The translations under genes were made by a program, and so were the position numbers. From positions 124,001 through 188,000 of the forward strand of contig JBAJFE010000046.1 in the NCBI GenBank assembly GCA_037903355.1: 64,000 nucleotides of DNA, read 5' to 3'. Below, in pieces: positions 122 through 54,979 of this stretch. Position 1 is the first letter of the stretch; the number at the start of each line of letters is the position of its first letter. The DNA is from Trichuris trichiura (lineage: Eukaryota > Nematoda > Enoplea > Trichinellida > Trichuridae). The notes under the pieces are model-generated. The model worked only from the letters and a program-made list of their open reading frames with translations. It made no database searches and was not told the origin of the DNA.

Positions 122-405
122 AAGCTTATCCTTTCGAAAAACAGGATGTCTTTTAACAGGCTTGAATAGTTTCATAGTAGATCTTCAGATTCACGGGTTT
201 TGCCTGTTGGGTGTAAACAAGCTCCCCAACACTGCTGACGACGGAACACGAGCAGTTCCGAAACGTACGGTATTCGTTTTGTTCTGTAATTTCTCTAACA
301 ATTTGCTCATCCATCCGTTGGTAGGGCATTTTGAAGTTTACTTACAGATACACCCAACAGGCAAAACCCGTGAATCTGAAGATCTACTATGAAGCTTATC
401 CTTTC
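122..405 (+). mobile_element. Leader-plus-palindrome element, copy 1
   Basis: A 14 bp direct repeat, AAGCTTATCCTTTC, lies at 122-135 and 392-405 and looks like a target-site duplication. Inside it is a unique leader (about 136-172) containing GGATGTCTTTTAACAGG, followed by inverted arms at 173-214 and 350-391 (42 bases each, essentially perfect). The interior is not palindromic. At about 316-340 it carries the motif CTCATCCATCCGTTGG, shared with the arms of the copies at 4.2 kb and 19.4 kb. No coding capacity is visible. The leader resembles that of the other copies in this window. The shared architecture is seen directly; mobility is inferred. Confidence 0.75.
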
Positions 406-3400
406 TTGGAAAGAATTTTTAATTTCTTGTCTTAAAGCACCAATAATCGTTGCATGACCAAATTTTAAGCAAAGCAGTGAGTAGATGTTCGTAATGCTTG
501 TTGGTGAAGTTCTTGAATGACAGATGAACGAGAAGTTAGAACCCTCCCCTCCTTAAAGTAGCCACTAAATAGAAATATGTTACACTTTTCTAGTCACCAT
601 GCAGATGTTCTTGTATCCAATGTTGGTTTGAAACGTCGCTTTGGTTCGTTATCTCGTTTGTTGTGCGATTTAGTAAACACGTCACTTGCGTTCATAATTC
701 CCATGCTTCTCTTCCAATTTTAAAAGATTTCTCCTGGTTTCTCGGTGCATAAGGGAAACCGCTTATCCACTTGACACGTTATTCTAAGTGTCATATGCTG
801 TACCCAAGGATGCACAAGAAATTACAGTACAAAATTAATTAAGCAGACATGATACGCACCTTTCAAAACACTTGATTTCATTGGTTTACTACTAACGCTT
901 TTGTTGTTCCTTTCGCTTCAACGTTGTTCCTATACGATTCCTTCGCGTGACCTCGTTGATTAGCAACCGGCAACGCGTAGATTTCATGGGTGAATAAAAC
1001 TCAGCGTTGACAACTCACAAGTTTTCCTTATAAATTGCCTTCCAATCGATGACAATAATAACCACCTTAATCTATTTCAGAGACTAAATGCAAGCCGGTT
1101 AAGATTTTTTTGTTTGTCATTTCTAAGCAAGCTGTGCCGTTAGAAGTATCAATCCATTAAAAATTCTTCTGAATTTAGTTGAATGAGATTTGTAACTTTT
1201 CATCAAAATAGTAGTTATTCTTGCAATCTGACGTTGTTATTCCGGCAGAAAATTTGTTTTTCTTATAAAATAGCGCTGAGTTTCCATTATTCGATTATAC
1301 GACTGTTTATAGCGGATCGACTTACAAGTAATAGTTATCGAGCTATTACTACCGAGTGTTACTACCTTTGTAATTTCACCAGTGTTGTCTCAGTTCCCAG
1401 TTTCAGCACTGAAGCAAAAGGTATTAAAGTTGAGCGTTCCAGTAGCAAAGATATCTGATAAGCATCATTGTTGCTTCTGCAAAGTAGGTGCTTCTTGTTT
1501 TACAAAAAGATTGCTTAGTAATCGAAAAACGAACTTCATTTGTCATTACATTCGGAACTTTGTTTGTCCGGCTGATAGCAAAGTGGACAATAAGTGATGA
1601 AAACTGAAGATGAAAGTGGAGACATAAAGGGGTCAGCGAATTTGGTTACAGCTTAAAAGTTTAAAAAAGTCGGTTAAGTTGGTTCTCTTAAGCTAATACT
1701 CTGGGGTACTAAATAAGCGTATTAGCGGCTAATCTTTTTGCATGTTTCTGTTCAATAACTCGTCATTTCATCTTTTGATTCTATTTATTTTTTACCTACT
1801 TCAGTTTCTTTCTTCTTTCCTTATTCTTCTCTTGCTTGTTCTTTTCGGCATTCTTCCTCCGTCATTTGTATTTTTAGTTTATTTCTATATTATAACAACG
1901 AAGAAAGCAAAAAAGACGCTGGGATGAATTACAATAATGAAATTCCATTTCCAGTTCAGGCTGTATGTAACTGGAAGAAGAACAGGAAAACAAAACAAAA
2001 GAAAAGAATGAACTACGTATTAAGTTATGAGGAACGTGTAGTGCGAAAAGAACAGCCACTAGTATAGCGATTTGGTACAATGAACCAATTTTAAAGCATT
2101 TTTCTGAATTTTCCACTGTTAAGGCGTTCACTGTACTCTTTTTGTCACCTTTATCATTTCCATTTTTTACCATTTGCTTTGACGACCCTATGGAAAGCCC
2201 ATTTCTAAAGTCCTTTAAAGAAGCAAGGGTTCAACTTTTCGTTGCCAGACGGATTCTTTCTGTAAAATTAAGTCAGTGATGAAATCAATGCGCCTAAAAA
2301 GGAAATAGGCGTTTAACGCTCTCCTAACTTGTCCACACGCAATATCTTCTTTCATCTTCTGTGCAGTTGAAGCTGTAACGGTTTAGAACGGGATCTCTTA
2401 ATTTCATATCGTGCAGAGAAAATTAGCCCTTCTTGGGGAACTTTTACTCATAACTCTTCCACTTTTCGTAGCGATTTCCGTATAGTTCTTCTCTTTTGAG
2501 CTATAACCTGCTTTTTCAATTTTATTTTTCATTTTTGCGATCATCAGATATGGAGCGTTTGGATCTCACTTGATCCATTAGCACTAAAGCTCTTATCACT
2601 CAGTTTGACAGATTTTGTCTTTTGTAAGTCTCCCTGCCGGATTAACTTTGGCATGGAGTTCAGCTGTCAGGTCTATCATCTGCCGTCGCCAAGCCTGTCT
2701 GGCAATGGTGTGAGCAATGAATCGGCCAGAAGAACGTTTATTTACAATAAAATGAGAGCTCTCAAATCGTGCCAGAGCCCTCGTCAGTGCATGATGTAAA
2801 AGTAGGTAGGGGAACGAGATGGTAATAAATGTTTTAAATTAAGAGTTCCAGTTTAAAATGAACTGCTTGCCAAATTGTCAAAACACGATAATGAGAAGTG
2901 GTGTCCACGGCTAATACGCAGTCATTCCCCCATGCAACAAGATAAATGCGTTCTTGGGAAACCTTACATTCTACGAAATCGCTTTATACAATGCACGTTA
3001 AGTATAAGAAATTGGGACTAAGGGGAAGTACTTAAAAGTTCACTTACTTAGGCATAAAAAGTGAGAATCGGTTATAAAAGTGTAAGAATTAAAAAGAAAG
3101 CATTAGTAAAGTACGTGTAAAGTATCTGTAGGGCTTTAGTATACAGTGCTGCGACGTGTCTTTAAACAAACTGAGACCCGAGATTACGGGAACTGTCCTA
3201 AGAGCTCCGTTCTGAGGCGTTCCGGTGAAACGGATACAACGTAATTACGTGTAATGAAAATAAAAGATTTAAATGGTTCATTCGCATTCTCAGTTCATTG
3301 CATCTTCAAGGATGATAAAAGTATGCGACTTGCTGATCTCAACGTAGGGGTTAATGAAACTGGCCAACTTGTTTGGAAGCTTTGATGCCGAGAGGGAGGC
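406..3400. other. Intergenic or intronic DNA, no supported gene
   Basis: Only short open frames of fewer than about 100 codons occur here. None has recognisable domains or a convincing chain of splice sites. T-rich and A-rich tracts are frequent, for example around 1742-1920. I found no RNA gene or repeat structure that I can support. Confidence 0.5.
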
Positions 3401-3419
3401 TTTTGCTGCTCAGTCATTA

Positions 3420-3608
3420 CAGTAAAACCCATGAATTTGACCACTGCTATATGGTGACCACCTCCCTGAGTTGACCGAATTTTGACCAGTTGATTTGTCC
3501 GCACGTTAGCCGAGCCACTTATACCCACTTCCTATATGTTGACCACCTCCTATGTTGACCAGTTTTCCCCAGTCCGTTGGGTGGTCAACTTAAGAAGGTT
3601 TTACTGTA
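3420..3608. mobile_element. pogo/Tigger-type MITE
   Basis: Both ends begin with CAGTAAAACC next to a TA dinucleotide (TA at 3418-3419 and 3609-3610), in inverted orientation, which is the pogo/Tigger (Tc1-mariner superfamily) pattern. The terminal inverted repeats continue imperfectly with a TTGACCAC motif. Further TTGACCA-type motifs recur in the roughly 189 bp interior, for example near 3463-3470, 3540-3545 and 3555-3560. There is no transposase; it would need an autonomous relative. Imperfect arms suggest an old copy. Confidence 0.75.
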
Positions 3609-4149
3609 AATAGTTTCTGCCGGCATTTGTCGTTTTCATTTAAATTTTCAGTTCCCTGTTCCTCGTGATGGTGCTCTGTAATTGCAGACACTGTCGGCCA
3701 TTTGCGGGGAGAGTTCATTTCAGGCGTGCTTCTTAATGTTGTTATTCGCTGCGTGTGGATTGAACAAAGTGCATTTCGCCAGTAGAAACAAGGATTGCAA
3801 TGTGCAGTCGCAAAGTAGATCGAATCTTTTCTAAAACGAACGTAAATTTCGTGCCATCTGTCACCACGATTTCTCATAAATAGCTGTGTTATACGAATTC
3901 TACTGCCAAACTTGTTGAATAGGGTTATCTTTTCTCGCGTATGTCGAATCTCATATTCAGTTTGACAGAAGCCTGATTAATTGATGAAAGCAAAGAATCT
4001 TTCAGATGTTGACCCGTCGCGTCTTCAGCATTTGACATCATGGCGAGGAGACGCTGATGGCTAGACAAGACAATTTCTGAAAGCACCCTTCTCATTTTTT
4101 ATTGTTCTTAACAATTGAACTGTTTTCTGTCGCGTTGATTATTTAGAAC

Positions 4150-4465
4150 TGGTTTATTCAAACTACTTCATACGGTATGTGTTCTTGCCCGTTGATGGGT
4201 TCTGAAATTAAACCGAAGCAAATGCCCTACTAACGGATGGATGAGCAATTATTAAGAAAAAATACAGAACAAGTACAGAACACTTTGTTCTAAGTACTTG
4301 TTCTGTATTTTTTCTTAATAATTGCTCATCCATCCGTTGGTTGGGCATTTGCTTCGTTTTAATTTCAGAACCCATCAACGGGCAAGAACACTTACCGTAT
4401 GAAGTAGTGATGAAAATCCATTGCCCCGTTAAGAAACACCCCGTGTTCAAGATGGTTTATTCAAA
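4150..4465 (-). mobile_element. Leader-plus-palindrome element, copy 2
   Basis: The 13 bp repeat TGGTTTATTCAAA flanks the insertion at 4150-4162 and 4453-4465. Long inverted arms run from about 4163-4276 and 4293-4407 with few mismatches around a short loop, so a transcript would form a hairpin of more than 110 bp. The leader lies on the right in reverse orientation (4408-4452); read on the minus strand it contains GGTGTTTCTTAACGGGG. It is the same subfamily as the copy at 19253-19560. No protein is encoded; open frames across the arms are artefacts of the palindrome. Confidence 0.85.
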
Positions 4466-4603
4466 ATAAAACGTTTGCGGCTTTGCTACCCGTTCGTTAT
4501 AACGAACGGGTAGCAAAGCCGCAAACGTTTTATTCTGAATAACGCACCCGTTAGAAAGGAGGAGAAAAAGAAAAGAGAAAAAAGAAGAATTGGTTTATTC
4601 AAA
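4453..4603 (-). mobile_element. Leader-plus-palindrome element, copy 3 (adjacent)
   Basis: A 70-base perfect palindrome (arms 4465-4499 and 4500-4534, no loop) is followed by a reversed leader and A/G-rich tail (4535-4590). A third copy of TGGTTTATTCAAA is at 4591-4603. On the minus strand the leader reads CTCCTTTCTAACGGGTGCG, matching the leader motif of the other copies, although the palindrome body is unrelated in sequence to copy 2. The shared 13 bp repeat suggests that two elements inserted successively at one site. Confidence 0.8.
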
Positions 4604-7600
4604 TTCATTAATGTGGAAATACTCGTTGCAATGGAACACAATGTTGCGTGGTAGGAGATGTTAACTTGACTGCTAGCTTTTACCTCAGCAAACAGAATAT
4701 AATTTGAAACTAAGAGTGTTGCTATGTTCGACTGATCTTAAAAATCGATCAAGCATAGGAACACTATGTCGCAGAAGGTGCAAAAGTGTAGCAAACAGAA
4801 TTTTTCTGCGATGATCAAAATAGACTAGTGCATCCAGAATGATATTACTGCGTTTAAGTAGAAAGTTATTCTGTAGTTATTGCGCTTTTACGTTAACGCT
4901 GAAGAAAGTTAAAGTCAAATATTTAAAACATAATTTACAAAATTTTGCATATTATTCAGCTTTTTAGCAATTGTAAGTGACTGAATTTTCAGTTATTCTT
5001 GAACTTAAAAATCCTTCAGGCGTTTCAGTTCTTCTCTGTATATGCGTATTCATAAAGAATATTTGGACAACCAGTGCGTGATGTCCAACGCTTATTTACG
5101 GCTAGTCTGAGCCAAAAGCGGCTTGTCGCGAATGCATAGTTTACGATATGCGATTTTGTTAATTTTTACGGAATTGATCGGTTTATTAAAGACATTTTTT
5201 TTTATTTCGGAACCGTCTCCATTCTTCTTGTCCCATCACCAGCGAAATAAAATGACGTGACAGTGAAAATGCAATTCCCCGCAATTGGTTCGTGTTCTCT
5301 TTGTAAATGTGGAAGCAGTCGATTGGTTCTTTGTGAAACGTTTTCTGTCAAATGTAGCCTTCAGGGGCCGCCCTATCGGATGACAGACCAGGTAGAATCC
5401 AAAAGCCGTACAGGTATCATAAAGCTTTCTTCATAAAAGGAAATGTATGAGGTAAATATGCTACGAAAATATTAACGTTTTTACTGGACAGTCATTCTAC
5501 TGCTTTCAAGAACGCAAAATTCCGGGTGACGCGCACGCATATTACTTTGCTCGTCATTTTTAATGACCTCAAAATCTTGATAATTTGTACAGAACGGCTG
5601 TTTCCATTGAGTAAATTGTAAACTAAAAGACAGCTTTCGCGACCCGGCTGGTCCTGTCTTTGTTGCTGAATATGAGGTTACTTTCGACGAATCTGTACCA
5701 TTCGACGCTAGAGATAGGATCAGTCGCACCTTATAAGTTCTATCTCGTTTTATCTATTAATCTATTCGTTGGAAACGGTAATTCCATACAAATTACGAAA
5801 TTCCCGTTATCTATTATGGGATAACTCTGGAAACGTAACGTCTTGAAACTTATTCCGTGATCCTGTAGAAGGGAAATAACCGGCAAAAATTGTGATAGCC
5901 GGACTATTATTAAGGCAACAAAGTACACATTTCTGCGGCAGCAATACCTGCGCAACATTTTTTGTACTATTTTCAGTGCTTCTTTTATCCAACAAGCACC
6001 TGAGAGATGATTTGAAGATGAGATGAAAATGCGCAAATTATTGCCTTATATAATGAAAAACTCGACGGTGATATCTACGCTTCTGTACACGTGAACGACC
6101 CGGAAGCTCATACGGAGGCCTTATTTAGTTTTCATTCCGTCAAATGCCTTCGGTCCTGTTTTCGTAGACAAGCTGTGAATACTAATCCACTGCTTCTCAG
6201 AGCATTATGTTGTCTACAGTCAAGAATTTGCTCACTACATTCTACCAGAAAAACAAGCTTTCTCAAACTGAGGTTTCGCAAAGTTTTACAGGGGAAAATT
6301 TATACATTACGTAACCTGCGAATGTCTGGATAAATACACAGCCGCATATGCGATAATGGGTTCCAAAGCTTTCTGCAGGTAGCCCGAACGAGCATACATT
6401 ATGTTTTACTTGTTCCTTTACAATTTTGTTATCACTGAATGTATAAATAGGCACAATAATAAAGCAACGGTAATCACTGATGATAAAATAGAACAATTAT
6501 GTAAATTCGTTGGAAACTCAATTATCCAAGATAATTTTTGCCAGGTTTAACTCGCATAATTAGAAATTCAGGTATTCGAGTATTTGCTTTGTTTGTCAGT
6601 CCTTTGTATGTCTTTTGACTTCATTTACTGCCAACCTCATTTGTCAAAGATATCCTACAAGAACATTGTTCTACCACTTACCATCAAGATGACATGCCTT
6701 TAAAAAATTTGCGCATGTTGGCCTTAGCGTCGTTATGGTTTTTTGACTGCCAAGCTGCAGATATTTTTCAAGCACAGCGTGGCTTTTCAACCGTATCCCT
6801 CTTGTTCTACCAACATGGTACTGCAACTTCTAAACAGCGATATAGCTTATCACGATGTGTGCTTGCAGTTTTTATTTTACCTCTCAGCCAGAACTTCTCT
6901 CACTCTGGATTCCCTTTTTACGTTTAGCATTCAGTCAGAAGTTTCATAGTCATTCACTATTTCAAACTCTGAATGTTCATTTTGTCCAGTTACATGTCAG
7001 CGTCAAAGTTGTCGCATGTGCTTAATATCGAAAGGGTTTGTGGGAAATCAAAGATTTCTACTGCAATTGTGCATCATGCAGCTAAGGTTATTTTGCTCTG
7101 CCATTCGATTTTGCTCTTCTGCTGAAGAGTAGTCCTTGGTCATTCAGGTCGATGAAACACAACTTTTTCAAACCTTTCAATTACTCTTTGCAAAAGGTTG
7201 TATGTTCAATCCCATTAGAAGTGCATTAAGTAAAATAAGGTTTTCTTCAGCACAACGTATTTGATAAACGTGCAGTCTGTTTGATAACAGAGGCAACTAC
7301 TGCATTATTAATCAACAGCTAAGATTCACTTCGTGGATAAGCTGGATTAAGAGGAGACACTTGTTTTGGAGAATAATTTCTCAACACTTTACTCCCCCCA
7401 GTGCCCGTCCTCCTATACTGCTGGTTGCTGACCTTTTCAGAGACTACATCCCCTCATCCTGCATTCCTCCTCTTTTTATTAAAATGCACTTTATCTTCCG
7501 CCCACTTCCTTCGGCTTCCAATGCTTTCACTCACGACCTTGGTTTCTTGAGTCCGCTGAAATGTTCACGGCCTCTAGAGGTATTAACGCCTAGTTAGAAC

Positions 7601-7711
7601 ACAATTGTAGGCCAAGATGGAGGAATTTTTCATCACGGCACTCCGAATGGCGATAAAGATTTAACGCGCATGGCTCGCTTGTTTCTGAAATTCTGTTTTT
7701 AATATTTTCAG
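4604..7711. other. Mostly unassigned; isolated exon-like frame on minus strand
   Basis: No gene is confidently supported. A minus-strand frame of about 85 codons (5481-5735) is rich in Ser/Thr and sits after a possible acceptor near 5735, but no partner exons with matching phase and no recognisable domain were found. The remaining short frames look like chance. Confidence 0.3.
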
Positions 7712-8120
7712 GCTGCGCTCAACAACTAAGAACAAGACCGCTGATGGGCAGTGAGCCAGTTGTACGTAAATATAAGCAAGCAGGTGTAATTGCTGGTCAT
7801 TTAATCTTGCAGGCGGTGAGTATTTTCCAGTTTATTAAACTTGCAGATCTGGTGGTTCCGAAATCATTTGGGCACTTTACCTTTTCAAATAAATCGTTAC
7901 TTAGTGATTGTAATAATAATTGTTTTTCCGTGGCACTAACTATAAGACACATGTGCAAAATGTTTACATAATGAATGAGAAACAATTAGTGGTGTCTTTA
8001 ACATAGAACCGCCTGCCATAAAATTATTAAATAAAGTCAGTCTTGACGAGCATCTCAATGCTGAAAACTTGTGTTGTTCTTTGCAGGATTCCACTAATGG
8101 CAACGGACAAGAGATTACAG
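7712..8120 (+). CDS. Possible two-exon fragment of an unrecognised gene
   Basis: A frame at 7712-7815 follows a good acceptor (TTTTCAG) and ends at a strong GTGAGT donor in phase 0. It joins 8087-8120, which lies between a TTTGCAG acceptor and a GTATAC donor, and the codon phase is kept. The joined product includes KQAGVIAGHLILQA followed by DSTNGNGQEIT. No start codon, stop codon or family could be assigned. It could be an internal part of a longer gene or chance. Confidence 0.3.
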
Positions 8121-9462
8121 GTATACCGAAAGAATAATGGAATAGATTGGCGCGAATGAATTGATTGAATAAGCTAACAAAAGAGAAAGTCTTTCATAGA
8201 AATGTTGAATTAAATTTCTAATTATTTTTCGCCTAAGTTTTTTTTAGTGGAAGTTGGTCAATTTATCCGTTTCTCCATAACAGGTTATCTATTTATGATG
8301 GTTTATTAGTATCTCATAAGTTTGTACGGGAGGAAACCTTTTATTGCAGTTGCGTAAAGCGGAGAATCCATAATTAAACCTTCCTCATTGCCAGTGTCAG
8401 TGCAATGGTGAACTGAACGAAGCGATTGGCGCCTGATGACGGTCTGAAAGATGGATTAAGATTTAAGCAGCGACTTTCTACGTAATGTTTGTAAAACGTA
8501 TTGTAAAAATTTTAATAAGGCTGAATTGCATCGATCTTGTTCTTACTTGTCCTTGCTCGTTATGTGAATTGACCATTTGCATATCGTGCAGTCGGTGTCC
8601 CCCATTGTGACGCGGACATAAAGTCTCATAAACGACGATGTATTCTTCTGTATTCGGACGACAAATAAGAGCAAGAAGGAATAGTCCGGTCGTCCTACAA
8701 GACCGATGAAGTTTAACTTTATTTCGATTTTCATAGCAGTTGTTACTGTTCTTTCATGGAGTCACCACTCAAACTCAACCATTCCTTTTCAGAATGTCCG
8801 CAGGCACCAATCGCCACATTAATCCTGCCACTGTAATGCTACTTATGATTGCGAAAATAGTGCATTGTTTTTGGAAGTTTGCTAATTTTTCTTTTGCCAT
8901 GCTCTTATATTTGGTCAGATAGGCAGCTTAGAATTACCGCTTCTTACCAACATAGTACTAGATTGTAAGTTACTAAATGATTCATTGACTTCGATTGTGC
9001 AGTTGAGCGTATCTGTTGAAATAGAATGTGGCCCTGCAGTCATGTTCTATCGAATGCTAAAGCCATAACTGACTTTCAATATTGTTGCGTACACTAGTTA
9101 TTAACATAAATAATTTACTTAAATTTAAGAAGTGTAATATTTATGCGCTAATGGCGGATTCAATTTTATGCATGCTAAAGTAGCGAGGTACTACATGAAT
9201 TGATCGAGAAGAAATCGTTAATATGAAAATAGCGAAATTTAATTGAGTCTACCGTTGTATCAGAATGTTCCAATGTTTTGTAGACTATTAGGCGACCTGT
9301 CAAATCTTAAGCAACTGCAGTGACGCGGAATGGAAAGATGTACTAGTTCTTAGTGATTCCTTAGGCAACGGAGTAAATTACAGCTCTTGTGGCTTTTTTG
9401 AATGTTGGCAAAATTGAAGTCACTAACTGATTGCTAAATATTGCATTCCATCTAGCTTCGTG

Positions 9463-12400
9463 ATGCAAGAAAATGGAAATAGTTCAATTGCATTTGGAAA
9501 CTTTTCTACGCAACAACCGGAAGCTGACGATTCTTCTGACAATACTATTCATGCAGTTGCAGGCCTTCTAAACTTCTCCTGCAACTTAACTCTTTTTGCG
9601 GCCATTTTGTGTAAGAACCGCCGAACTAGGATGGACAGATTTCTGGCAGGTACGCCGTTCTTTCTTTCGCATTGTCACTCCTTACTCTTTGTATTTGTTC
9701 ATGTATTTATTCTTTTTCTTTTATACGATGGTTTCTTCGCATGCATTATTGTCATTGTACTTTTTTGTTACAGATTTTTAGCCATGAGAAAATCACATTT
9801 CTAACCTTTTTGTTGAAAACTGTCTAACCAAAGCCGTTTTAACTCATCGCGGTGATACTCAAAAGCTTTAGCAGAGCGCGGGGTTCGTATGCATTAAACA
9901 GAAAACGTGACTTTTACAGCAAAGGATCTACGTCAAGTGTGCCAGGTTTAGTTTCAGGCAGAGGTATCCGCGCGCTGAATGGTGAAAGTTGAGGCACCAT
10001 GTTCATAATGCTAAGTTTTTATGCAGCCATACGTAGCCTGCGTGTCGCAATTTTAGGCGGCTAATCTAAAGGCACTCTCCAGATATTGTCGTAATAGTAA
10101 TATGATCTTGTTTGCGCAAATCACCGCGTATCGTATTACTTTTGAAGAAAAACTTTAATCGTAGTAATCAATGTATTTACTTTGTTTTTGGAACGATTTG
10201 TTTCTGTTACCATTCGACGTTGTAGTTGTAGGACTGTACTTAATGGACAAATAACGCAGCATTTTATCAATAAAAGCGAGAGAGTAAACCTTATTCATGC
10301 ACATTCAACGGTAGGAACTAAAAAAGGAAACTACAAGCAGCGTTCTCTATTTTACTGGCAGCTGACCATCCATGTTCTAATTAGAGTATTCTTTATGGGC
10401 ACCGTCAACATTCAGGAGGAAATAATAGTTTTGAGGAAACGTTGTCATTTACCAGATGTGTTTCAAAGCATGTGTTCTTTCAATTTGCAATAATTGTATT
10501 AATAAATCTTTGCTAAATGAATTAACTGGGTCTGCTGCCCCATTGGCAGTTCGTTTGCAGTTTATGGCAATAATTCTCTCTTGCATCTGGGCACGGTAAT
10601 TCAAATGAGCCTGTGCTGGCTATTATTGGTCGTTATAGGTATTTGAATATTCCGCTCCTTGTAGCAGGTTGATCATTTTTGATTGTGTAAACTTTTATTA
10701 AATCTTGACCTGTTCCGTTTATCCAAAAAAATCAAGCATTCAGAGCTTTCGGATCTGATCTCAACCTGCCCTCCGGGGAAGTGGACGACTGCGACGAATT
10801 GATGCCACGATATCGCTATCTTAACTTAAAGCATATTCGTGTAAAGTGTACCAGATTGATAACATGATGATTACTGCTTTTTGGGTTAAAAGTTCTTCAT
10901 CTACCAGCTGCGCGTTTTGTGTCATTTTGCCCTGAATTTTGTTTCGAAGATGTAGCTTCTTGGTACGGGACGGTAGGTTTTCATGATTCATCTCTTTCTT
11001 TTTACGGAGTATGTTCCGTTAAGAATACAATAAGTTTTCAATTTCCGAAGCTTTCGGACCGAGCCTGACCCGTTCTCAGTGGTACCAAAAGTTACGTAAA
11101 TAGCAACTGCGAGTCGCCAGTCAATCGGTTCTAACGGTTTAAGGCGAGTGTTTTAAAGTCCTGTTTTTGAGGTTTCTTTGTCCGTCAGCTGACTCTGTGT
11201 CTTGTTGCGTGTATGTCGTACTACCTTATGATGTACATTGTGTTCCATTTTTTCTTTTTTATATTTAACTCCATTGTTCTTTTCATGTTCGTTATATCCA
11301 TTGCCATTTGGAAGAAACATGAAACGGGTGAACATATGGAACAGAAATGTGCTGGACTGCACTGTTCCGTTACAGGTGATGCTTTCGGTGCTCTGCCCAT
11401 GGAAATGGAGAGGTCTAGTCTTGGAGAACGTCCCTGATTCCTGGGGATGGTCTCATTTTGAAAATTACTTCTAGCACTGCTTTAAGCGGTTAAATGTTTC
11501 ACGTGTTCACGAAATTTGTGTTATAGTATTTAAGCACTTTCACCAGGATAAACAGCGGAACAGGCATATTCTACAGCGTAAACTATTCCTGCTTCTTTAG
11601 TGAAGAGAACTTATGTTTTGTAGTTGCGCAGAAGTAAACTTAAGTTTTTGGAGCTCTTGAAAATGACTGTGAAGCATAAATTGCTGCTAGCCACTAAACT
11701 TTTTCTCCTAATCCTGCATAGTAGGGCAATATGAGGTGCTGCCTAATAGGGGTGTCAGGCTTTTAGGAAAAATTCGAGTGAAGTTTTCACCAAATGACAT
11801 TCTTTATGAAAAGGTTAGTGTAACAGTTTTTTGAAAAGGGTACCCATGGTGTGATTAAGTTCCGAGCTTAGAAATTCAGGACTTCACAAATTAATTGCTC
11901 TGTTTATTATTCCGCACAGAATTCCACGCAGTACCGATTTGGGAAGGTGGGAGCAGAAGTGGAGACATTAATTTTTGTGAGTAGGTCTGTAAACTTTAGT
12001 CTTCAGCACATCAGCTGTGCGTATAACCAATGCATGAAGGAAAGAAAATGTCTTCCTATGTTTTTTTCGATATTAAAGACAATTTGGTTGGAAAAAATGC
12101 TGTTACAAACTTTGGGAACTGTTCTTCTTTTTAATTTTTTAAAACATCGTCAGCATATAGCTTGTAAAGTCATGCTGCACTTTCGGTACCTGCTGTTACC
12201 AACTACACAATGAGAAAAAGTAGAAAAATGAATGAATCCACCAGAAGAATAATATATCAAAAATTTAAGCGTTGCAATGGAAAAATATTCAGAACATGAT
12301 TTACGCAAGTCGACGCAAAACACGCAAATGTCTAATAAAAGAAATTAAAAAGCTTCCAAAGCTATCAGAAACTAAATGATTTAATTGCACCAAGAGCTTT

Positions 12401-19239: not shown

Positions 19240-19573
19240 AGGTGCTGTTGGATCTTGAACACGGGGTGTTTCTTAACGGGGCAATGGATTTTCATCTCTA
19301 CTTCATACGGTATGTATTCTTGCCCGTTGATGGGTTCTGAAATTAAACCGAAGCAAATGCCCTACCAACGGATGGATGAGCAATTATTAAGGAAAAATAC
19401 AGAACAAGTACTTAAACAGTTCGAAACTGTTTAAGTTTAAGTACTTGTTCTGTATTTTTTCCTTAATAATTGCTCATCCATCCGTTGGTAGGGCATTTGC
19501 TTCGGTTTAATTTCAGAACCCATCAACGGGCAAGAATACATACCTTATGAAGTAGAGATGAGGTGCTGTTGGA
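19240..19573 (+). mobile_element. Leader-plus-palindrome element, copy 4
   Basis: A perfect 13 bp direct repeat AGGTGCTGTTGGA lies at 19240-19252 and 19561-19573. The leader (19253 to about 19292) contains GGTGTTTCTTAACGGGGCAA. The palindromic body runs from about 19293 to 19560 with long arms (TCTACTTCATA... and its inverse) and a short centre near 19420-19436. Body and leader match copy 2 at 4163-4452, in the opposite orientation. Few arm mismatches and an intact duplication suggest a recent insertion. Confidence 0.87.
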
Positions 19574-32378: not shown

Positions 32379-32470
32379 CTGCAAAAAATTGCTTCACTTC
32401 TTTTACCTATATTGTAATGTATATGAGCCGTCTTTCGAAACAATGTCTATGAGCATGAAAAAAAGATTGT

Positions 32471-32731
32471 ATAAATTTCAAAGATGTGGTTTTTTGGTAC
32501 GGGACCGTATGTTTTCATAATGAAAAAGCTTTATTACGGGTAGAGTCCCGTTTAATGTGTGATAAAAGGCGTGAACTTCGGGACTCCGTGAACAGACTCC
32601 TACATATTTACAATTTAAGACCACTGAAGACGGGTCTCGATTGACCCGAAAGCTCCGGAGTTCACGCCTTTTATCACACATTAAACGGGACTCTGCCCGT
32701 AATAAAGCTTTTTCATTATGCATAAACTTCA
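32471..32731 (+). mobile_element. Leader-plus-palindrome element, copy 5
   Basis: Arms of 61 bases at 32516-32576 and 32660-32720 differ at about one position. The leader (about 32481-32515) contains GTGGTTTTTTGGTACGGGAC. A 10 bp repeat ATAAAYTTCA (9 of 10 identical) flanks it at 32471-32480 and 32722-32731. The loop carries CTGAAGACGGGTC and GACCCGAAAGCTCCGG, shared with the copies at 45.3 and 59.5 kb. It lies just 5' of the first VIP36 exon found, so it may sit in that gene's first intron or promoter. Confidence 0.8.
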
Positions 32732-41655: not shown

Positions 41656-43428
<1,773 letters not shown>

Positions 43429-45260: not shown

Positions 45261-45488
45261 AATGAATAAAGCCTTGCAAATGTGGTTTCTTGGTACGGGA
45301 GCGTGTTTTCATAATGTAAAGCTTTATTACGGAGTAGGTTCCCGTTTAATGCGTGCTAACTCCGGAGCTTTCGGGTCAACCGAACCGCTGAAGACGGGTC
45401 TCGGTTGACCCGAAAGCTCCGGAGTTAGCACGCATTAAACGGGAACCTACTCCGTAATAAAGCTTTACATTATGAATGAACAAAGCTT
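45261..45488 (+). mobile_element. Leader-plus-palindrome element, copy 6 (perfect arms)
   Basis: Arms of 74 bases (45310-45383 and 45401-45474) are perfectly complementary around a 17 base loop. The leader (about 45276-45309) contains GTGGTTTCTTGGTACGGGAG. Flanking direct repeats AATGAATAAAGCCTTGC (45261-45277) and AATGAACAAAGCTTAGC (45475-45491) match at 14 of 17 positions. It is the same subfamily as copy 5. Perfect arms imply either recent insertion or arm homogenisation, yet the flanks carry mismatches. A transcript would form a very stable double-stranded hairpin. Confidence 0.87.
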
Positions 45489-46489: not shown

Positions 46490-47781
46490 ATGGAAGCAGT
46501 AACGGTTGTATGTTTTGGTCTTTCTATATGGTTGATTGTATGCTTGCTACGTCCGCCGCGAGAACTGGCTAGCAGTGGCTTTTCCGTCGATGCCCTGTTG
46601 AAGTTATTCCTCTGTGATGAAAGGAAATCGTTTATTCGTCATCATCTTTGGCGAACCTGCCTAATACTTCCTGTGCAGTCGTCGATCGCGCTTCGTAAGT
46701 GCTTGGTCTGCTATCAACGGTTTCGTCAAATGATGGTTTCTAGTAATACTGTACGTGATTAGTTGTTGTCTTGTGAACGTGGACCCTGATTACCAGTTGT
46801 GTAGCTGGTTATGGTATGTGATCATTTCCGTTGTTATTTTGCCAATTCTCTTCCGAGCGCAACTATGGCATTTTGGCGATTGGGGTGCACATCCTGTGGT
46901 AAAAAACTTGCGGATGTACGATTCAGGTTGGCAGGACGTCGCTGCGCATATTGACTCCGAATATGAGCAGCTGGATAAGTTCGTTGCTCAGCTAAGCGGT
47001 GGCAGAAGATTTGTTGTAACGAATTCTTGGATAGTTGTCGTAGACGGTTCAATTGTGAGGTTAGTAAAACAGGAAGATGCATCTCTTTCTATAGTCAGTT
47101 CTGTCGAACGTGGGTTCAACGATCAGCTGGTCTGTATCCGAGTGAAAAGTCGAATAGGTGCAGTTGAACCTTTTGTAGTCAGGTAAATGCGTTGTAAATT
47201 TTCGTAAGCTTTGTTTTTTTCTTGTTTAGGTTTAATGGTTATTTGTTGCGTGATTTGCGCTCAAAACTGAGAATTCCAATTGCCAGACTAGACAGCGTTG
47301 TACAAAGCGTGGAAGATCGTTTTATAATGGCGTTTCAAGAGTATGTGCTCAACAGCAATCCTCGTTACGACCCAGCTTTATGGCCGGTACGTTCTTATGT
47401 CTGTTGCCGTAATTTGTTTGCATGTATAAATTGAGTATTGGAAACGAGTTGAATTCAGAGCGAAGGTTCATGCATTGGATGTTTTCAAAATGAAGCGAAT
47501 GTGAAAATCATGAAAACATGCAGTGAGGAAAGTTTCGGCGATTTGAATGTGGATCAACAACTGCCTTGTTCCTCGTGCAACTGCCGTCCGATGTGGTATG
47601 ATTGCTGTACAAATTGAACATATTTGTCGTGATCGTACTTGTCAGGTGTTTGTCATGTTTGGGTCGTTGGTTTGCATCAAGACAAAATCCAAATGTCCCG
47701 GGAGAATGGATGCTTGGCAAGTCGCCTTGTCCGAATTGTCGCGCTACATTCTGCGTACTTGACGTTTGTCTTCCCGCGTAA
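46490..47781 (+). CDS. tmem-129: TMEM129-type ERAD E3 ubiquitin ligase
   Basis: Five exons (46490-46694, 46744-47182, 47230-47386, 47459-47595, 47646-47781) keep phase and give 357 residues; human TMEM129 is 362. TMEM129 is an ER-membrane RING ligase acting with Derlin-1 and p97 in ER-associated degradation. The N-terminal half has three hydrophobic segments (about residues 4-20, 65-85, 96-115). The middle has HPVVKNL and a DKFVAQL helix. The C-terminal atypical all-cysteine RING reads GSCIGC, CSSCNCRPMWCLSC, RWFASRQNP, CPNCRATFCVLDVC. All cysteines expected of the C4C4 RING appear present. Introns are 47-72 bases. Confidence 0.96.
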
Positions 47782-49594
47782 AATCGCTGCTTTCTGTTAC
47801 AAAACTTTAAATCTAACTAAGAATGTCTCGGCAATTTAAATGTTGCACCATAGTTGACCTCGTTTGTAAAGGGAAGTAACTTGTAGTACAGTTTATTACT
47901 GTCGAAAAATTCGGAATTCATGTATGCCTGACCCGTCAATCTTTCATTGCGCAGTGAATTTCGTTTTCCGAGTACTTGAGTGGGCTTGCTTTGTCCAGAG
48001 GCATAGTTGCACTTCGCCGTATACACACATTTGCATCTTTGCAATTTTGTTGAGCGCAATGAATTTATTTAAGTGTTAATCAGAACGGAATGCAATCATG
48101 GCGACTAAATCGTCAATAAAGGAAAGGTATGTTATCCTTTCAAATCGATAGTGTCAGGACATGCAGTCGTTCCGTTGCAAACTTGCATTTTCTCTCACAC
48201 AAATCAGTTTAATTTTGCACTGAAGAACTTTCTGGCCCTGTGTTTTACATGACTTTTTGTAATAAAACTCAGTGTCATTGGCCACAGAATAGCGATTAAA
48301 AAATTATGAAAGAATTCAACGATTTCAATGAGGAGAACGCAAGCCGCTAAGAAATGCGCGCTGCCGTTTCTGCTAACTTGGCGGTATAACACGTGCACTG
48401 TCGAGTGGACTACGTAATTCGATTCGAAATCGATCCTGAATTTTTAAAATTCTTCATCCAACTGAAAGGCAAGCTTACAGCCAACTGTGCGAAAATGGAA
48501 TGTTCATTCTCTTTATACACGGCCGATTGTAAGTTTCTTATGCTGCTCTAACATCGGCAATGGTCTGGCACAAATGCGTACATTATGTGTCCAAAAGGAT
48601 AGATTGCCTTTTATTGGGCGCTTGGTCTGATCGTTAAAAATAGCAGCAGAACTGCCGATATTTTCACGGTGTTTTCTCGTTTTCTTCTGTTCATTGCTTT
48701 CTGTAGTTACGCAAAACAGATGTTCGATTGCAAGGTAACTCTTCGTAGACACAGGAAGCAACATACAGAAGAAGTTCTGTTTGAACTTCCCTCCTCTAGT
48801 ATTTAAACTACATTTTGTCCCAATGTAGTGCGTTGTAATGGCTTCAGTGGCGTTCGTAGGCGATGGAGCAAGATAAGTGCTGAACGCAGAGCAAAGAAAA
48901 ATTGTTTTACAGAAGATCAATCCGTTGTCTACCGTAAAATTATTCAAGAGGTAGTGGGCAGGAGAAAGTAGCCAGAAAAGCCGTACGAAAGGTGGAAAGG
49001 AAAAATGAAGGACCCGTGAAAAAGAATTTTTGCATTTGAGCAGCAGAGAAGTGCAGAAGGCAAATGTGTGCATTAGCTGCTCGATGATTGATCGAGAGAG
49101 ATTCATTTTGTTGGTACAGTTAATGAAAAACCTGAAATCTCAGAAAACCGTAATGGTTTTCCGATCATCATCGTTTATGCAAAGGCGTCAGCGTACGCGT
49201 TGACTCCATCTGCTTTACCTTCTTAACGCCGGCGATGGTAAAGTACATTACAGGTATGCACCGCTTAACGAGGCTTTTATGTTAAGAAGAAGCTGAATTT
49301 ATGTCCTTTTTGGGCTTACGAAGAATTTGCGGTGGCTCTATTCGCCGTTCTGAAGAAAGAGGAAAACGTACAACAGCTTCTATAACAGTTAGAACATTTT
49401 TTGCAAGCGGTAAATTTCGAGCGCAGCAGACGATCAGCTGTAACCGCTTAAGTCCAAGAAAGCGAAAATGAATTTCTCACCTGTCCTGACGGTTCTGTGA
49501 AGCCGTACCAACAAAAGAACATTCAATCTTCCCGCAGTCCCAGTCGTCAGCTCATTATCTTCTCAGTTATGATAACTGTAACAACGATGCATCC
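47782..49594. other. No confident gene; possible short plus-strand exons
   Basis: A possible start exon at 48098 (MATKSSIKE followed by a GTATGT donor) and an exon-like frame at about 48420-48531 (FEIDPEFLKFFIQLKGKLT..., GTAAGT donor) are on the plus strand, but their phases do not join directly. A 197 codon minus frame at 48513-49106 has no recognisable domain and probably arises by chance. Confidence 0.3.
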
Positions 49595-49805
49595 GCTTAG
49601 GCCAGTGTTTCTCAACGTGGGCCCTGGGGTCCCCCTGGGGGGCCATGGGAGATTTTAGGGGAGCCCTGGAAGCCAGGGGGCCCTGGAGAATAATGCAGCA
49701 GGACATTGTCCCAATAAACGGTGGGCCCTTATAAGGATTAGGGGTGCCCTGACAAGCCCTAGGGAAGCCCTGGGGCAAAAAAGGTTGAGAAACTATGGCT
49801 TAAGC
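49595..49805. mobile_element. hAT-type MITE
   Basis: Terminal inverted repeats CAGTGTTTCTCAAC (49603) and its partner GTTGAGAAACTATG (ending 49797) match at 12 of 14 positions and have the CAGnG...TTTCTCAAC start common in hAT elements. Eight-base flanks GCTTAGGC (49595-49602) and GCTTAAGC (49798-49805) agree at 7 of 8, the hAT duplication length. The 195 bp interior is unusually rich in GGGCCC/CCCTGG runs and has no transposase. Confidence 0.85.
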
Positions 49806-52800
49806 TATTTCCTCCTTGTGCAGAGCCGTTTACAAATTAAAGCGAATTTTAGTATACCATAAGAGTTTTCCGGATTTTTTTGCCATTTCTGGTCCCTAGC
49901 GTTGCGCAGCAGTTCTTTGTTTGGGTTTTGGTCTGCTCAAGCTCTTTTGCTGTGTTATATGATAGGAACTTCCAGCCCTCTTTTCTCCAGTCCCATCAAT
50001 CCTCGTAAAACAGGGTATGCGTGTACCAGAATTTCGGAGTTCAAAAACTTTTAAAAATCGACATGATTTCACAAATGGTTCCCTGCATAAGTTCAACTGG
50101 CGATCCTGTGGGAAAATGGATTTGGACAGCTTGCTGCATATGAGAGTAACACACTGCCTGATGAATGGGGCGTTCACATAGGAGCTACAGACGTTGACCA
50201 CGGATTTTGATGAACTTTTAAAGCTCAATATAATCTTGACTTCTCTAATAATAAAATGGTTTAACATGATTTTCCTACGAAGTTTAAAAATTAATGAAAA
50301 ATCTAATTTTTACAGAGGCAAATGACTGGGAACGATGGATTTTAAGGAACGTTGATTAAAGTGCTTCGTCATCCGTATTTTCAGCTAATAAAATATACCA
50401 ACTCTTAGAGTACTACACAACATTATTTTCTTGCTACGCTTTCGGAATGCATGTGAAATGCTACGAGAAATGCTAATTATGCGTACACATTTAAGTTCAA
50501 CTACTAACATCTCAAATTGCGATTCTTTGCCGGTAGGAACCCACCATTCATACTGTAACTGTGCAAAATCGCCAAAAGTGCAGGTTCCTCTGGAATCACT
50601 TTGTCGTGGCTTCCTATTGGACGAGCGCATGCCGTCGCATTACGGAGATTAGCGCTAATCCGTGCTGCCATGCCTCATAAGAAATACACTGCTTCATTTA
50701 AATGGTTTTCGATTAACACGCTAACTCGCTTTTCCGGGATTCTCCAAGAGCTCAGTTTCTTAAAATAGCATTGATGAACGGGGACATGCATTGAGTAAAC
50801 ATGCAAATCATAAAGCGCGAATTGCGAGTACTGTATGCTTTTGCTTTTTCGCTTTTAAAGTCGGTTTATTTTTCTTCCTAGCAACGGTGTAAAGGCAGTT
50901 GGTTCGTGTCTACGTTTCCTCAAATGTTTTCGTTAAGTGTGCTTTCTTCTGCTTTTTTTTACGGAATGCAAGTGCGGTCTCTGTTGTAACTTCTTTTTGC
51001 GTAAATCATTCGCTTATCGAACGTCCCATTTTTTAACAGTGGCTAACTTTCTGGACAATCCGCGTATCTTTAGAAAATGGGACGTATTTTTTTTTGAAAG
51101 CTATCTACACTGTAAAAACGTGAGCATTTAATGAGTGGATTACTTCCTTAAAGGCTTGTGCACCCGTTTCGAAACCATGCGTTCCAGTTTCCACTGTCTT
51201 ATTAAACTAGATCTTGACAACATTCTTCCCCCAGGAGTAGTGGCGGCAATATCAGTGGGTAATACGCGACGATAACACGTGTCAGCGGAACAACAGGAGG
51301 GACATTTTAGTGCGGGTCATTGAACACTGGACAATGGACCACCACACCTTATGTGTAGGCTTAGGCTTAGGCTTAGGGCAGGACAGGACGCCTGGCAGAC
51401 GTACAGTACCCACTTGACCTCCTTTGAAGTTGCAGCTACAACTTCTGAGGGGAGGAACGTTGGGAAGTAATTTATGTCGACAGATGAATTCTCCCTTTGT
51501 ATGTGCACGTCATAACTCAATATTCCTTCCTGAAGCCAATAGTAACTGTTGAAGAGTATAATGGGCAACAAAAACCGGAGTCATGGAGTCTTCAGGATTC
51601 TATCGTTCACGTCATCAGCGTACGAGTAGCTCCTGTGTAGGCATTGGAGGAACATTGGCGTGTCAGTGAACTTTAAGTGACGCAATTTTAACTCACGTGG
51701 GTTTTGCAGCTGAGCTAGCCTATTTAGCTTGTTCAAATGTCGCTCAGGCACGAACCACTCACTGTCTTTGTTCAAGCAATTGTTGTTTTATATATGCATA
51801 AAATGTTGCTTTTATTTTTCTTCGTGTTTGATGACTTTTTTTGCATAACTCTATCGTGATGCGTTCACGTTTGCATTGCGCTGCTTGCTCTACCGCCGCT
51901 GATATTCTAAGCATTTTTTCTTGGCTCCAGCTTTTATGGGTCTTTTCTTAAGGTGTTAACTCTGTCAAGCAAAGTGCTGTTTTTCCTCGACGTAAGTTGC
52001 GGAACAGTGGCGCAAAAATCTTTAGTTGTCAAGGCAGTTTACTACTACTTTTTAGTTCCATTGTGAAGGCGATCACACTCGAAATTTGCCTGTTAAAATG
52101 ATCCAGGAAATTATGTCGACTTCCAGTTTTAGTTATTGCTAGAGGTAAAAGTTATGCCAGCCAAGCTAGCGAAGAGGTCTTCAATGTCGTAACTGACCGT
52201 GTTATCTCTCGACGTAATCTTTTCTTTTTTTAAATTGGTTTGGGAATTGATGGTGGTTTTTATATTGGATGCGCTTTTTTCTCTCCTCGATTATCACACT
52301 TTGAAGTGGAAGGTTGCTAGCATCGAAGTAAGGCTGTTAGCAGGTGGCGTGGAAAAAGTGTGTTGCTCGCGATTATTGGATAGAGTTCAGGGTCTTTGCT
52401 TTGGTGATCACTCATCGCTCTCCGTTCTGTATTATTTCATTCCCTTGACTATGTTCACTTGGTTGCAAACTTCTTAAACAAAACTAACGGGACTGAGAAC
52501 GTGCTTCAGAAATAACAAAGATCGGGTTGCTGTTGTAAAAATGTGGGCATAGCAGTAAAACGATCGTAGGTATGCAATATTAAGGAGCGCTTCTATGTCT
52601 TTTGCTTACCTTTACCCAACTGTAAAGTACGTAGCAGTTTCCACTGTTTTGCAGTCTCTCCTTTCGTATAAATATCTCGTGCTTTCATTGCTGCTTATGT
52701 GCTCCTTCATAGCCTAATTATTCTGCTATACTTATGTGAACTACACTTTTCAACGAATGGTGCACAGATATTGCCTTTTTGATGTTCCTAGGTCTCCATA

Positions 52801-52943
52801 GTTATATTAAATATTATATAGCAAGGGTAAACATCATTTCTCTCTTTGAAGATTCATTGAAAGGCGAGTATTTGAAACAATTGAAATGGCTAGTCACTTT
52901 CGTTGTCGTTGCTCCGTTGATTGTCATCTCAGCCTGTTGTCAG
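49806..52943. other. No confident gene; possible retroelement debris
   Basis: Short frames only. A plus frame at 50431-50652 ends with KVQVPLESLCRGFLL, faintly like a SOCS box, but stands alone. At 51230-51780 the composition and minus-strand strings resemble the tail of an LTR retroelement polyprotein, too degenerate to classify. The 5' part of the RAD51D-like gene may lie at the right edge. A weak inverted repeat (CGTCCCATTTT near 51022 and AAAATGGGACG near 51073) is also present. Confidence 0.3.
51355..51378 (+). repeat. Interstitial TTAGGC telomere-like repeat
   Basis: About 3.7 tandem units of TTAGGC (GTAGGCTTAGGCTTAGGC then TTAGGG) lie within otherwise non-repetitive DNA. TTAGGC is the standard nematode telomere unit. 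Such short interstitial runs may mark break repair or chance. Confidence 0.8.
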
Positions 52944-52945
52944 GG

Positions 52946-53855
52946 ATGAATCTTTACCACGACATTTACAACAATACGGCAGTATACGGTTGCGGCCATG
53001 AGCAGTACGGTAAACGGATGCTGTACGGATAGTGTTGACGTATTAATTTGATAGGATAGACAGGATGCTCAAAGGTGGCTTTTATACGAATGAATTCACT
53101 GAAGTTTCCGGGCCAGTTGGTGGTGGCAAGTCGCAAGTGACAGGCTGATATATGTGCTTCATTGTTTCATGCGTTCATTTGCAGCTGTGTCTTTGTTTTA
53201 TGGCCAATCTGATCGCAAATAGTGATGGACGTGTTCTGTTCGTAGATACTACCGGCTCATTTTCAGCGCTTCGAATAGCAGAAATTCTGCTTGCAAAGTA
53301 TTCCGTCGTTGAAATGAAGGTTTGAATGGACCTGCACTTTAGCTACTTCAATCATCATTTAAGGAGGTGGGAAATCTCTTGAGAAGAGCGGTTTATGAAA
53401 AGTCGAATGATCGGAGGCAATTAGATGAAATTTTGGATTCCATTTGCGCGGTTAGAAGTCGATCAACTTTCACATACGTTAAGCCTAATCGTTTTAGAAT
53501 GTTAACGATATCCGCAACAATTTGAAAGCGGTCGTAGTTGATCACGTGAGCACTGTACTTTCCCCTACGTTAGTTCAAGAACGGATGCAAGGTTTGTTTC
53601 GTCTTGATCAGTTCTACCTTTTCCTTTCAACTTTTAGGCATGCAAAATATGATGCGTACTGCGGTGAGGCTTAGAGATTTGGCGAAGCGCTATAATTTAT
53701 GTGTAGTGGTGGTTAATAATGCAACTGAAACGGAAAATGGCGAGTTGGAACCGTCGTTAGGTCCTTGGTGGACTAGCATTCCTGACACACGATTGCTTGT
53801 CAGGCCTGTCGATGACAATCTGTTCAGTGCTCAATTGCTGAGGAGTGTTAGAGCG
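52946..53855 (+). CDS. RAD51D-like recombinase paralogue (C-terminus unresolved)
   Basis: Six exons (52946-53004, 53055-53136, 53185-53319, 53364-53450, 53498-53591, 53638-53855) keep phase and give 225 residues. RAD51 paralogues assist RAD51 filament formation in homologous recombination. The order matches RAD51D: NLYHDIYNN, IDRMLKGGFYTNEFTE, Walker A GPVGGGKS (residues 39-46), LCLCFMANL, RVLFVDTTGSFSALR, Walker B AVVVD (132-136) with HVSTVLSP, a helical region and NNAT...SLGPWWTSIPDTRLLV. The ATG at 52946 lies two bases after an acceptor, so an N-terminal helical domain may be encoded upstream or truly be missing. The last exon ends at a GTAAGG donor; a candidate final exon (54143-54163, SSFSEE-stop) fits the phase but is weak. 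Confidence 0.82.
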
Positions 53856-54840
53856 GTAAGGCGTTCATTTGAAAATTCAAAAAAATTATTCTGGTCGTTC
53901 TTCCAACGTATTATTTAATGCTTCGCAATGGTGTGTTCTCTTGTGTATAGCGTAAGGAAGACCTGACACTTAGCTATCGTTTATGATATATTCCTTGATT
54001 TATTGATGCTTCGGGCGTACACTTCAAATGAAATCAACACCTGAAGAAATTGAGTAGCCATCATTTTTCCAATAGCACTCTTAGTTTAGTTGCTTTCCTA
54101 ATTCTTTTAGGTTGCGTGCTTGAATGTTGTTTGCTGTTGCAGTCATCGTTCAGCGAAGAATAATTAATTCTTTTCAAGTAGTTAGGAAGTTACAAAAATG
54201 TTTCATCAGTATTTTCAGGATTGTGGTAATAGTGTGACGTTCAGCTTTGGTGCTCAGGGATTGTTATCTCCATGCAGTGGTTGTTGATTTGCGTTGTACA
54301 AAGAATGGATTGAAATAGTGCTTGATTCGCCTTGGTGTTGATCACTCACACAGTTAGGACGGTAACACTAGTGTGCCCTGCTGTTATTGCGTTCGAGTAA
54401 AACATGACTAAAAAATTTCTTATCTCTGATTCTGTTTTGGAAATTTAGTGCCATTCATTTTATTCGCGTTCAGTTCATTGTTTAGTCGCTGACGGCGGAT
54501 GGGGATGGCTACGTGCTTTTCAGCGAAAAGTTCAGGAGCGCAAAAGAAGTATGGCACTTTTGTCTAGTATTTGCATAATTACCAGGCTTCAATTAATGGC
54601 AACCGTAAATGTCTAAATTTCTGAAGCCCGAATTTCATTTGGCATTTGCAAAATCCCCAGAGCAATAGGTGCATTTTTGCGATTCCATTTCAATTTACAT
54701 GTATATATAGACGTCTTGCATATATATCTGACATGTATACCTGGATGATTTACCTTAAATTATCGTCCGTATAATGCCTTTAATGAATAGTGGAAACGTT
54801 GTTATTTGATTTTACCGTAAGTTAGCATGTTTTTAAAACG
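53856..54840. other. Downstream of the RAD51D-like gene, no other gene seen
   Basis: Apart from the candidate last exon at 54143-54163, only short frames occur. A TATATA/ATGTATATATA-rich stretch lies around 54700-54735. Confidence 0.45.
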
Positions 54841-54979
54841 ACATGGAACTAAATGTAGTGTCTTCGTACGGGACCAAATAATTTCATTTTTTGGCTTCTT
54901 TTTTGTACGGATTTTTTCAACGGGACAGAGAAAATCCATACAAAAAGGAAGCCAAAAAATGAGACATGGAACTAAATGT
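54841..54979 (+). mobile_element. Leader-plus-palindrome element, copy 7 (short)
   Basis: A perfect 16 bp direct repeat ACATGGAACTAAATGT lies at 54841-54856 and 54964-54979. The leader AGTGTCTTCGTACGGGACCA (54857-54876) is followed by inverted arms at about 54888-54922 and 54931-54961 (CATTTTTTGGCTTC and inverse) with slight mismatches. The body is unrelated to other copies, but leader and layout agree. At 107 bp it is the smallest copy seen. Confidence 0.83.

Follow-up and report, generated by a model that had tools for sequence, protein, structure and literature searches.

Palindromic insertions with a one-sided leader in Trichuris trichiura and their relation to Penelope-like elements

Seven short insertions in a 64,000-nt stretch of the Trichuris trichiura genome (assembly GCA_037903355.1, contig JBAJFE010000046.1, positions 124,001 to 188,000; hereafter the window, numbered from 1) raise the question of what kind of element leaves behind a long palindrome with a leader on one side only, set between direct repeats. 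The best explanation, which we hold to be probable, is that they are copies of Penelope-like elements (PLEs) lacking an open reading frame (ORF), each made of two internally started cDNAs joined head to head.

The layout described in the first-pass annotation (direct repeat, one-sided leader, palindrome, direct repeat) was recovered on re-measurement for all seven insertions (7/7) at the positions given there, and the leader is indeed one-sided, the telling feature of the layout: each insertion has 27–57 unpaired nt on one side of the palindrome and 0 on the other. In five of the seven, the direct repeats, or target-site duplications (TSDs), are 13–17 bp long and free of mismatches over the core. 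When 200 random window pairs per insertion were scored against the observed TSD, none (0/200) reached the observed score for the elements starting at 122, 4150, 4453, 19240, and 54840. The TSD of the insertion at 45261 is moderate (11/12 match, score equalled by 3/200 random pairs), and that of 32468–32731 is weak (11/13 match, equalled by 13/200).

The leader as the antisense start of a Penelope-like ORF

Read in reverse complement, the leader gives codons 1–13 of a PLE ORF, whose start codon forms the palindrome edge. In locus L071 (loci are designated L, contigs C), the pseudo-long terminal repeat (pLTR) of the element reads into ...CACT ATG AAA ACA TAC GCT CTC GTA CCG AGA AAC AAC ATT TTC AAG ACT ATA CAG..., where the PLE ORF begins. 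The N-terminal peptide is kept, despite differing DNA, in family C (MKTYGPVPRNHVF), family A (MKIHCPVKKHPVF), family A0 (MKLFKPVKRHPVF), and family D (MKLFGPVRRHYIF), and is also encoded by a lone tailed PLE end in the window (10945..10984, plus strand, antisense MKTYRPVPRSYIFE), for which no partner was found within about 4 kb. The peptide pattern MK...[PL][VL].[RKN]..[VIL]F occurs 86 times in 331 kb of locus sequence, the majority of these loci having been fetched for the elements in question, and 0 times in the reversed sequence. Thirteen stop-free codons from the boundary ATG are observed in 11/11 tails of family A, 5/5 of A0, 5/6 of D, and 74/79 of C; 8 further C tails have no CAT at the boundary, and in the window copy at 45261 the tail itself is out of frame. 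In L071, L075, L082, and L095 the tail frame continues into the PLE protein.

The leaders are thus alike because the same N-terminus is encoded, and the unlikeness of the palindrome bodies reflects their nature as pLTRs from distinct PLE families. Likeness of the leaders, claimed earlier from the nucleotides, stands between families and is clearest in the reverse-strand peptides; the ACGGG word proposed as common to all is present in six of the seven leaders and missing from that of 122–405 (TTTTAACAGGC). A further suggestion, that one leader picks up different hairpins, had to be abandoned: tail and arm types co-occur by family, which rules out captured hairpins, and the leader belongs to the element itself, being antisense to the beginning of its ORF. 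A spliced leader and an RNA polymerase III box were also considered, and dropped in favor of the coding reading.

The family-C arms are PLE pLTRs lying beside ORFs with reverse transcriptase (RT) and GIY-YIG domains. A genome search for the GIY-YIG domain gave 71 hits, and BLAST of the window elements against loci around the best of these detected family-C sequence in 20/20 (L009–L028). In all four frames tested (L069, L070, L073, L074), RVT_1 scores over the cut-off and GIY-YIG lies C-terminally in the same ORF, and in eight 6-kb loci leaders or a hammerhead-like core of the pLTR adjoin open frames, the longest being 448–865 codons. RT and GIY-YIG ORFs beside family-C arms amount to the domain set of endonuclease-bearing PLEs. 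The arrangements vary: L071 has two direct pLTRs and one inverted, and the pLTRs are inverted in L072, L073, L074, and L076, the leader lying 3′ of the ORF in the first two and 5′ of it in the other two. Family D adjoins PLE ORFs by coordinates (e.g., the tail at C9:1443286 and the ORF at C9:1443533–1445668). Families A and A0 are probably PLEs, judging by their coding tails. Family B is placed among PLEs by layout only: it fails the N-terminal tail pattern, having no boundary ATG, and one of its frames reads ILNNAPVRKEE. Several PLE open frames of 850–901 codons have no stops, some of them being 97% alike, and judging by these sequences PLEs of this genome may have been active recently.

Given this identity, there is practically no chance that the insertions are foldback elements or miniature inverted-repeat transposable elements (MITEs) that a DNA transposase moves and whose sub-terminal sequence is the leader. 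TSDs do flank long inverted repeats, but the ends are asymmetric, the TSD length is not fixed (9–21), the leader encodes the PLE ORF start, and family-C arms adjoin RT/GIY-YIG ORFs; this explanation is refuted for families C and D, which are linked to ORFs and have coding tails. The first-pass annotation had argued against MITEs and cut-and-paste foldback elements and had proposed target-primed reverse transcription, and both proposals agree with our data: the former with the asymmetric ends, coding tail, and RT ORFs, the latter with the TSDs, a reverse transcriptase being responsible. It had also been aware of no described family with this structure; such a family exists, as the elements are PLEs, for which inverted pLTRs, a one-sided tail, and TSDs have been published.

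In the window, family A is represented by two putative pLTR hairpins. One occupies 4150..4465 (minus strand), with the tail at 4410–4452, where the plus strand reads ATG... (MKIHCPVKKHPVFK), and TSD at 4150–4162/4453–4465 (13/13 match); the other occupies 19240..19573 (plus strand), with the tail at 19253–19295 (antisense MKIHCPVKKHPVFK) followed by the arms, and TSD at 19240–19252/19561–19573 (13/13 match). The A0 hairpin at 122..405 (plus strand) has its tail at 136–175 (antisense MKLFKPVKRHPVF), arms to about 391, and TSD at 122–135/392–405 (14/14 match), and the family-D hairpin at 54840..54979 (plus strand) has its tail at 54857–54887 (antisense MKLFGPVRRHYI), then the arms, and TSD at 54840–54856/54963–54979 (17/17 match). 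Two hairpins belong to family C, both on the plus strand: at 32468..32731, the tail (32481–32518, antisense MKTYGPVPKNHI) is followed by arms with the hammerhead-like core, the right edge has its ATG at 32718–32720, and the TSD is 32468–32480/32719–32731; at 45261..45486, the frame-shifted tail is at 45273–45312, the core at 45388–45417, and the TSD at 45261–45272/45475–45486 (11/12 match). The window also holds a 5′-truncated PLE copy (59228..59632, plus strand) beside (TAA)n runs, comprising C-terminal codons of the RT/GIY-YIG ORF (KEALYIRHNLTYNRDQGADVSEIWTNIVTRYDCCS), then a 3′ untranslated region, the core at 59540–59569, and an untailed arm ending at the ATG at 59626–59628.

The family-B hairpin at 4453..4603 (minus strand) has a tail-like segment at about 4536–4590 and TSD at 4453–4465/4591–4603 (13/13 match, TGGTTTATTCAAA), the middle copy of the repeat being common to it and the neighboring A element. 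Elements of two families directly adjacent on the same or overlapping target are observed in four cases (window 4150–4603 and the regions of C1:2711993, C1:3093875, and C1:3019297), which suggests re-use of one cut site or one event with several templates, any enrichment having no valid control.

Copies across the genome and their two ends

In the 72.7-Mb eukaryotic assembly (62 contigs), whose mitochondrial COX1 can be read through with the invertebrate code, the family-C leader has 1201 matches (612 + 589) with at most three mismatches, compared to 7 (3 + 4) for the reversed pattern, and the family-A leader has 217, compared to 0 in the control. Among 50 loci with an exact C leader, all from contig C1 and including three leaders of double-tailed pairs, an inverted partner is located within about 510 bp in 35 and further off in 5, and for 10 no partner was found within the fetched stretch. 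A TSD score of at least 7 is observed in 31 of the 35 copies with a near partner. ORF-less palindromes account for 35 of the 50 tails sampled and, by extrapolation, the genome would contain from several hundred to about a thousand short ORF-less copies. For family A, 8 of the 11 leaders in loci have a partner within 900 bp, seven of these with a TSD score of at least 11 (the two window copies included). At C9, 67.5–70.9 kb, two family-A tails follow each other in direct order at a distance of 2.8 kb.

Over the fetched loci, a partner is present for 67 of 90 C leaders. The direct repeats claimed from the seven window insertions recur genome-wide, 57/67 paired tailed copies having a TSD score of at least 7, as compared to 17/200 swapped-flank pairs. 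Exclusion of 14 of the 67 (TSD score below 7 or junction beyond the set limits) left 53 elements for the analysis of geometry. Their TSDs are 9–21 nt long, the longest including mismatches or a simple repeat, with 25/53 at 13 or 14 nt; the tails span 31–47 nt, and a T/A-rich target is found 5–7 nt before the TSD.

Most sampled copies carry a tail at one end only. Where loci had been selected by criteria other than the tail pattern, facing-arm pairs (n = 23; arm ends with more than three errors, 140/308, were left out of the tail count) comprise 21 one-tailed, one two-tailed, and one untailed pair (P = 3e-5 against 1:1), and the ORF-selected pairs give a cleaner figure, 13/15 one-tailed. The TSD score is at least 8 in 16/21 one-tailed pairs. 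Loci chosen by the tail contain 32 one-tailed and 2 two-tailed pairs. Family B also occurs doubly tailed, in L098, with weak or no TSD.

Arms, junctions, and the origin of the palindrome

The arms of 41 copies shorter than 1000 bp (of the 53) were mapped onto 26 PLE 3′ regions. The arms are joined head to head, and 47 of the 82 arm ends stop 100–119 nt upstream of the start codon, the junction limits used in selection partly fixing the possible position of the untailed end. This cluster lies just upstream of the hammerhead-like core, which is located at 87–95 nt in 19/24 references. Head-to-head arrangement is also observed in 17/17 neighbor pairs at distances up to 4 kb among 100 listed exact copies of the core. 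The cluster of arm ends suggests that both cDNAs often reach the RNA 5′ end, in which case short palindromes would be joined strong-stop products. In two copies, C1:2114515 and C1:69752, the arm ends as mapped are 127 and 236 nt apart, with long AT-rich or (ATT)n filler between them.

The core itself, CTGANGA-stem-GAAA, has 1047 copies in the genome and 0 in the control. It takes the form CTGANGA-C-GGGTC..GACCC-GAAA, also found at 45388–45417 of the window, with the CTGANGA box followed, by our reading, by one additional base; in predicted folds, the outer stem seems to differ between subfamilies (AACTC/GAGTT, AAGAC/GTCTT), and Rfam gives no hammerhead hit for the pLTR core. Hammerhead-cleaved RNA found no support as the template: the inferred cleavage would be some 66 nt away from the boundary, and no more than 4/82 arm ends are at 60–69 nt. 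The abundance of the core could also point to retrozyme-like elements, that is, independent hammerhead RNAs borrowed by PLE proteins and not derived from PLEs, and for families A and B no ORF-bearing partner was found. Retrozymes are direct tandem repeats with a hammerhead. Here the 17 close neighbor pairs among the listed copies are inverted, not in direct tandem, the same core and arms are present at PLE ORF ends, the tails encode the PLE N-terminus, and Rfam does not recognize the hammerhead, so that we give this explanation a very slight chance. Candidate microRNA genes were rejected as well, the sub-threshold Rfam matches being on both palindrome strands, as a long hairpin would give.

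A palindrome could also arise from a single tail-started cDNA that folds back at its 3′ end and serves as its own template, and a self-priming model on an antisense template has been proposed for PLEs (PMC3846280). Many loops are indeed only 0–5 nt long, some located at inverted repeats native to the sequence, for example stem II or CTCCGGAG, and the two arms of one element are usually alike; the element's own partner arm is the best match in 24/45 elements (plus 2 ties), with a mean of 1.15 and maximum of 7 under random pairing. However, self-priming should copy the tail too, yet it is absent from the other end in 21/23 pairs. The untailed arm, moreover, exceeds the tailed one in 10–12 of the 41 short copies: by automatic mapping, the tailed arm is longer in 9, the arms are within 5 nt in 20, and the untailed arm is longer in 12, of which two (C1:5547290 and C1:6306529) look misassigned on inspection, leaving 10. 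In L074 and L076 a short antisense arm is followed by a sense ORF, an order that could not result from copying the tailed arm, and the ORF-bearing C7:5986692 (L020) combines arms of two subfamilies, matching these at 1.00 and 0.99 and each other at 0.87, as if two RNAs had contributed to one insertion. Self-priming as the only route is thus contradicted, and the snap-back idea of the first-pass annotation fails as a general route on the longer untailed arms and the missing tail copies; as an account of these elements, self-priming seems unlikely.

The short copies might, in turn, be internal deletions of ORF-bearing copies with inverted pLTRs, later multiplied from one or few masters, as their topology equals that of L072 and L073 minus the ORF. 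Loop positions vary between copies, where a single master should yield a single loop, and the ends of both arms concentrate at an equal distance from the start codon; we therefore consider such an origin improbable.

Unequal arms, the order of parts in L074 and L076, and the missing second tail together argue for two cDNAs started from two neighboring sites on the RNA. For the PLE Poseidon of Anolis carolinensis (PAc), it has been described that both strands are cut and extended and that two adjacent internal RT starts are separated by the tail (PMC11167929). In the insertions studied here, a PLE protein, probably a dimer, would nick both target strands about 13 bp apart. On one strand, reverse transcription would begin in the element RNA at about codon 13, yielding the tail; on the other, it would begin at the start codon, leaving no tail. 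Both cDNAs would then extend over about 110 nt as far as the RNA 5′ end, in the manner of strong-stop products, or halt earlier, and their 3′ ends would be joined, sometimes via short complementarity (e.g., stem II of the hammerhead-like core), into a near-perfect palindrome. With a tandem RNA template, one arm may continue through the ORF, which would produce ORF-bearing copies in either orientation to the tail. A stricter form of this scheme, in which one strand always starts at the first site (codon ~13) and the other at the second (codon 1), from two RNA copies on a protein dimer, with the event mostly ending as joined strong-stop cDNAs, we put forward tentatively, giving it slightly less than an even chance.

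Several observations weigh against the joining of two separately started cDNAs, or against parts of it. For PAc, no difference in start site between strands was seen in vitro (PMC11167929), whereas most insertions here have one tailed and one untailed end. Self-priming predicts equally well the junctions that coincide with natural hairpins (C1:4636561, C1:5547290, stem II). As to the one-tail count, 8 of the 23 pairs come from the window (2) or from loci similar to a whole tailed element (6), and the ORF-selected count becomes 12/14 without the pair completed only via an overlap with a tail-chosen locus (L014/L057); exceptions are the untailed pair in L069 and the double-tailed pairs C1:187150–187276 (TSD score 7), C1:7129542–7129853 (5), and C61:294657–294906 (8), whose TSDs are weak or absent. 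The arm-end cluster could reflect the limit of the pLTR rather than the RNA 5′ end, 4/20 copies with both ends in the cluster hold an unmatched center of 38–454 nt, and in 19/45 elements the arm of another element outmatches the own arm. Finally, families A, A0, and B are not linked to an ORF here, and for A, 0 of 100 listed tails are within 4 kb of the 71 GIY-YIG hits.

Relation to known Penelope-like elements and significance

Much of this anatomy (inverted pLTRs, palindromic junctions, a one-sided tail, and TSDs) is already known for PLEs from what is described in PMC3846280 and PMC11167929, and inverted pLTRs and short 3′ extensions are listed among PLE features in a curation guide (PMC8969392). 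The closest likeness is to the Pen families of Adineta vaga, which have RT and GIY-YIG in one ORF, pLTRs in direct or inverted orientation, a one-sided 31-bp tail within the N-terminal codons, and palindromes at the inverted junction (PMC3846280); the arrangement in L071 matches the description of Pen2a_Av given there. The tail corresponds to about codons 12 to 22 in the A. vaga elements and to codons 1–13 here, with the pLTR edge at codon 1, and the TSDs are 8–10 bp there (PMC3846280) compared to a mode of 13–14 bp here. Unlike in A. vaga, ORF-less palindromes dominate in T. trichiura, and tails number more than 1000. PAc resembles the present elements, beyond its two starts and the cutting of both strands, in a hammerhead motif at the pLTR/ORF junction; its main start is 111–118 nt into the ORF (PMC11167929), while the ends observed here are at about nt 0 and 38. 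Penelope of Drosophila virilis, as described in PMC3846280 and PMC11167929, likewise has pLTRs, inverted arrangements, and an optional tail of 30–40 bp; according to PMC3846280, it has previously been introduced into laboratory D. melanogaster.

New features of the T. trichiura elements are their scale, the one-tail regularity, and the cluster of arm ends 100–119 nt upstream of the start codon. In the accessible text of the open-licence PMC literature, to which the search was confined (subscription papers being outside it), we found neither a one-tail rule nor any account in which abundant ORF-less, one-tailed palindromes are the main product of PLEs. Self-priming and the choice of template are left open for PLEs in PMC3846280, and later steps of PLE integration are “yet to be validated experimentally” according to PMC11167929. 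The abundant short copies form a natural data set on how PLEs finish integration and why their pLTRs are inverted. They tie the tail to codons 1–13, point to a one-tail rule, and make clear that either arm may be the longer. Hairpins of this kind can be mistaken for MITEs or, given the sub-threshold matches to microRNA families in Rfam, for microRNA precursors. If the asymmetric two-start rule is true, ORF-less palindromes would represent what PLE integration yields by default and would preserve its first steps like fossils; the N-terminal codons of MK...PV...VF would be doubly constrained, as protein and as the signal for the start of reverse transcription.

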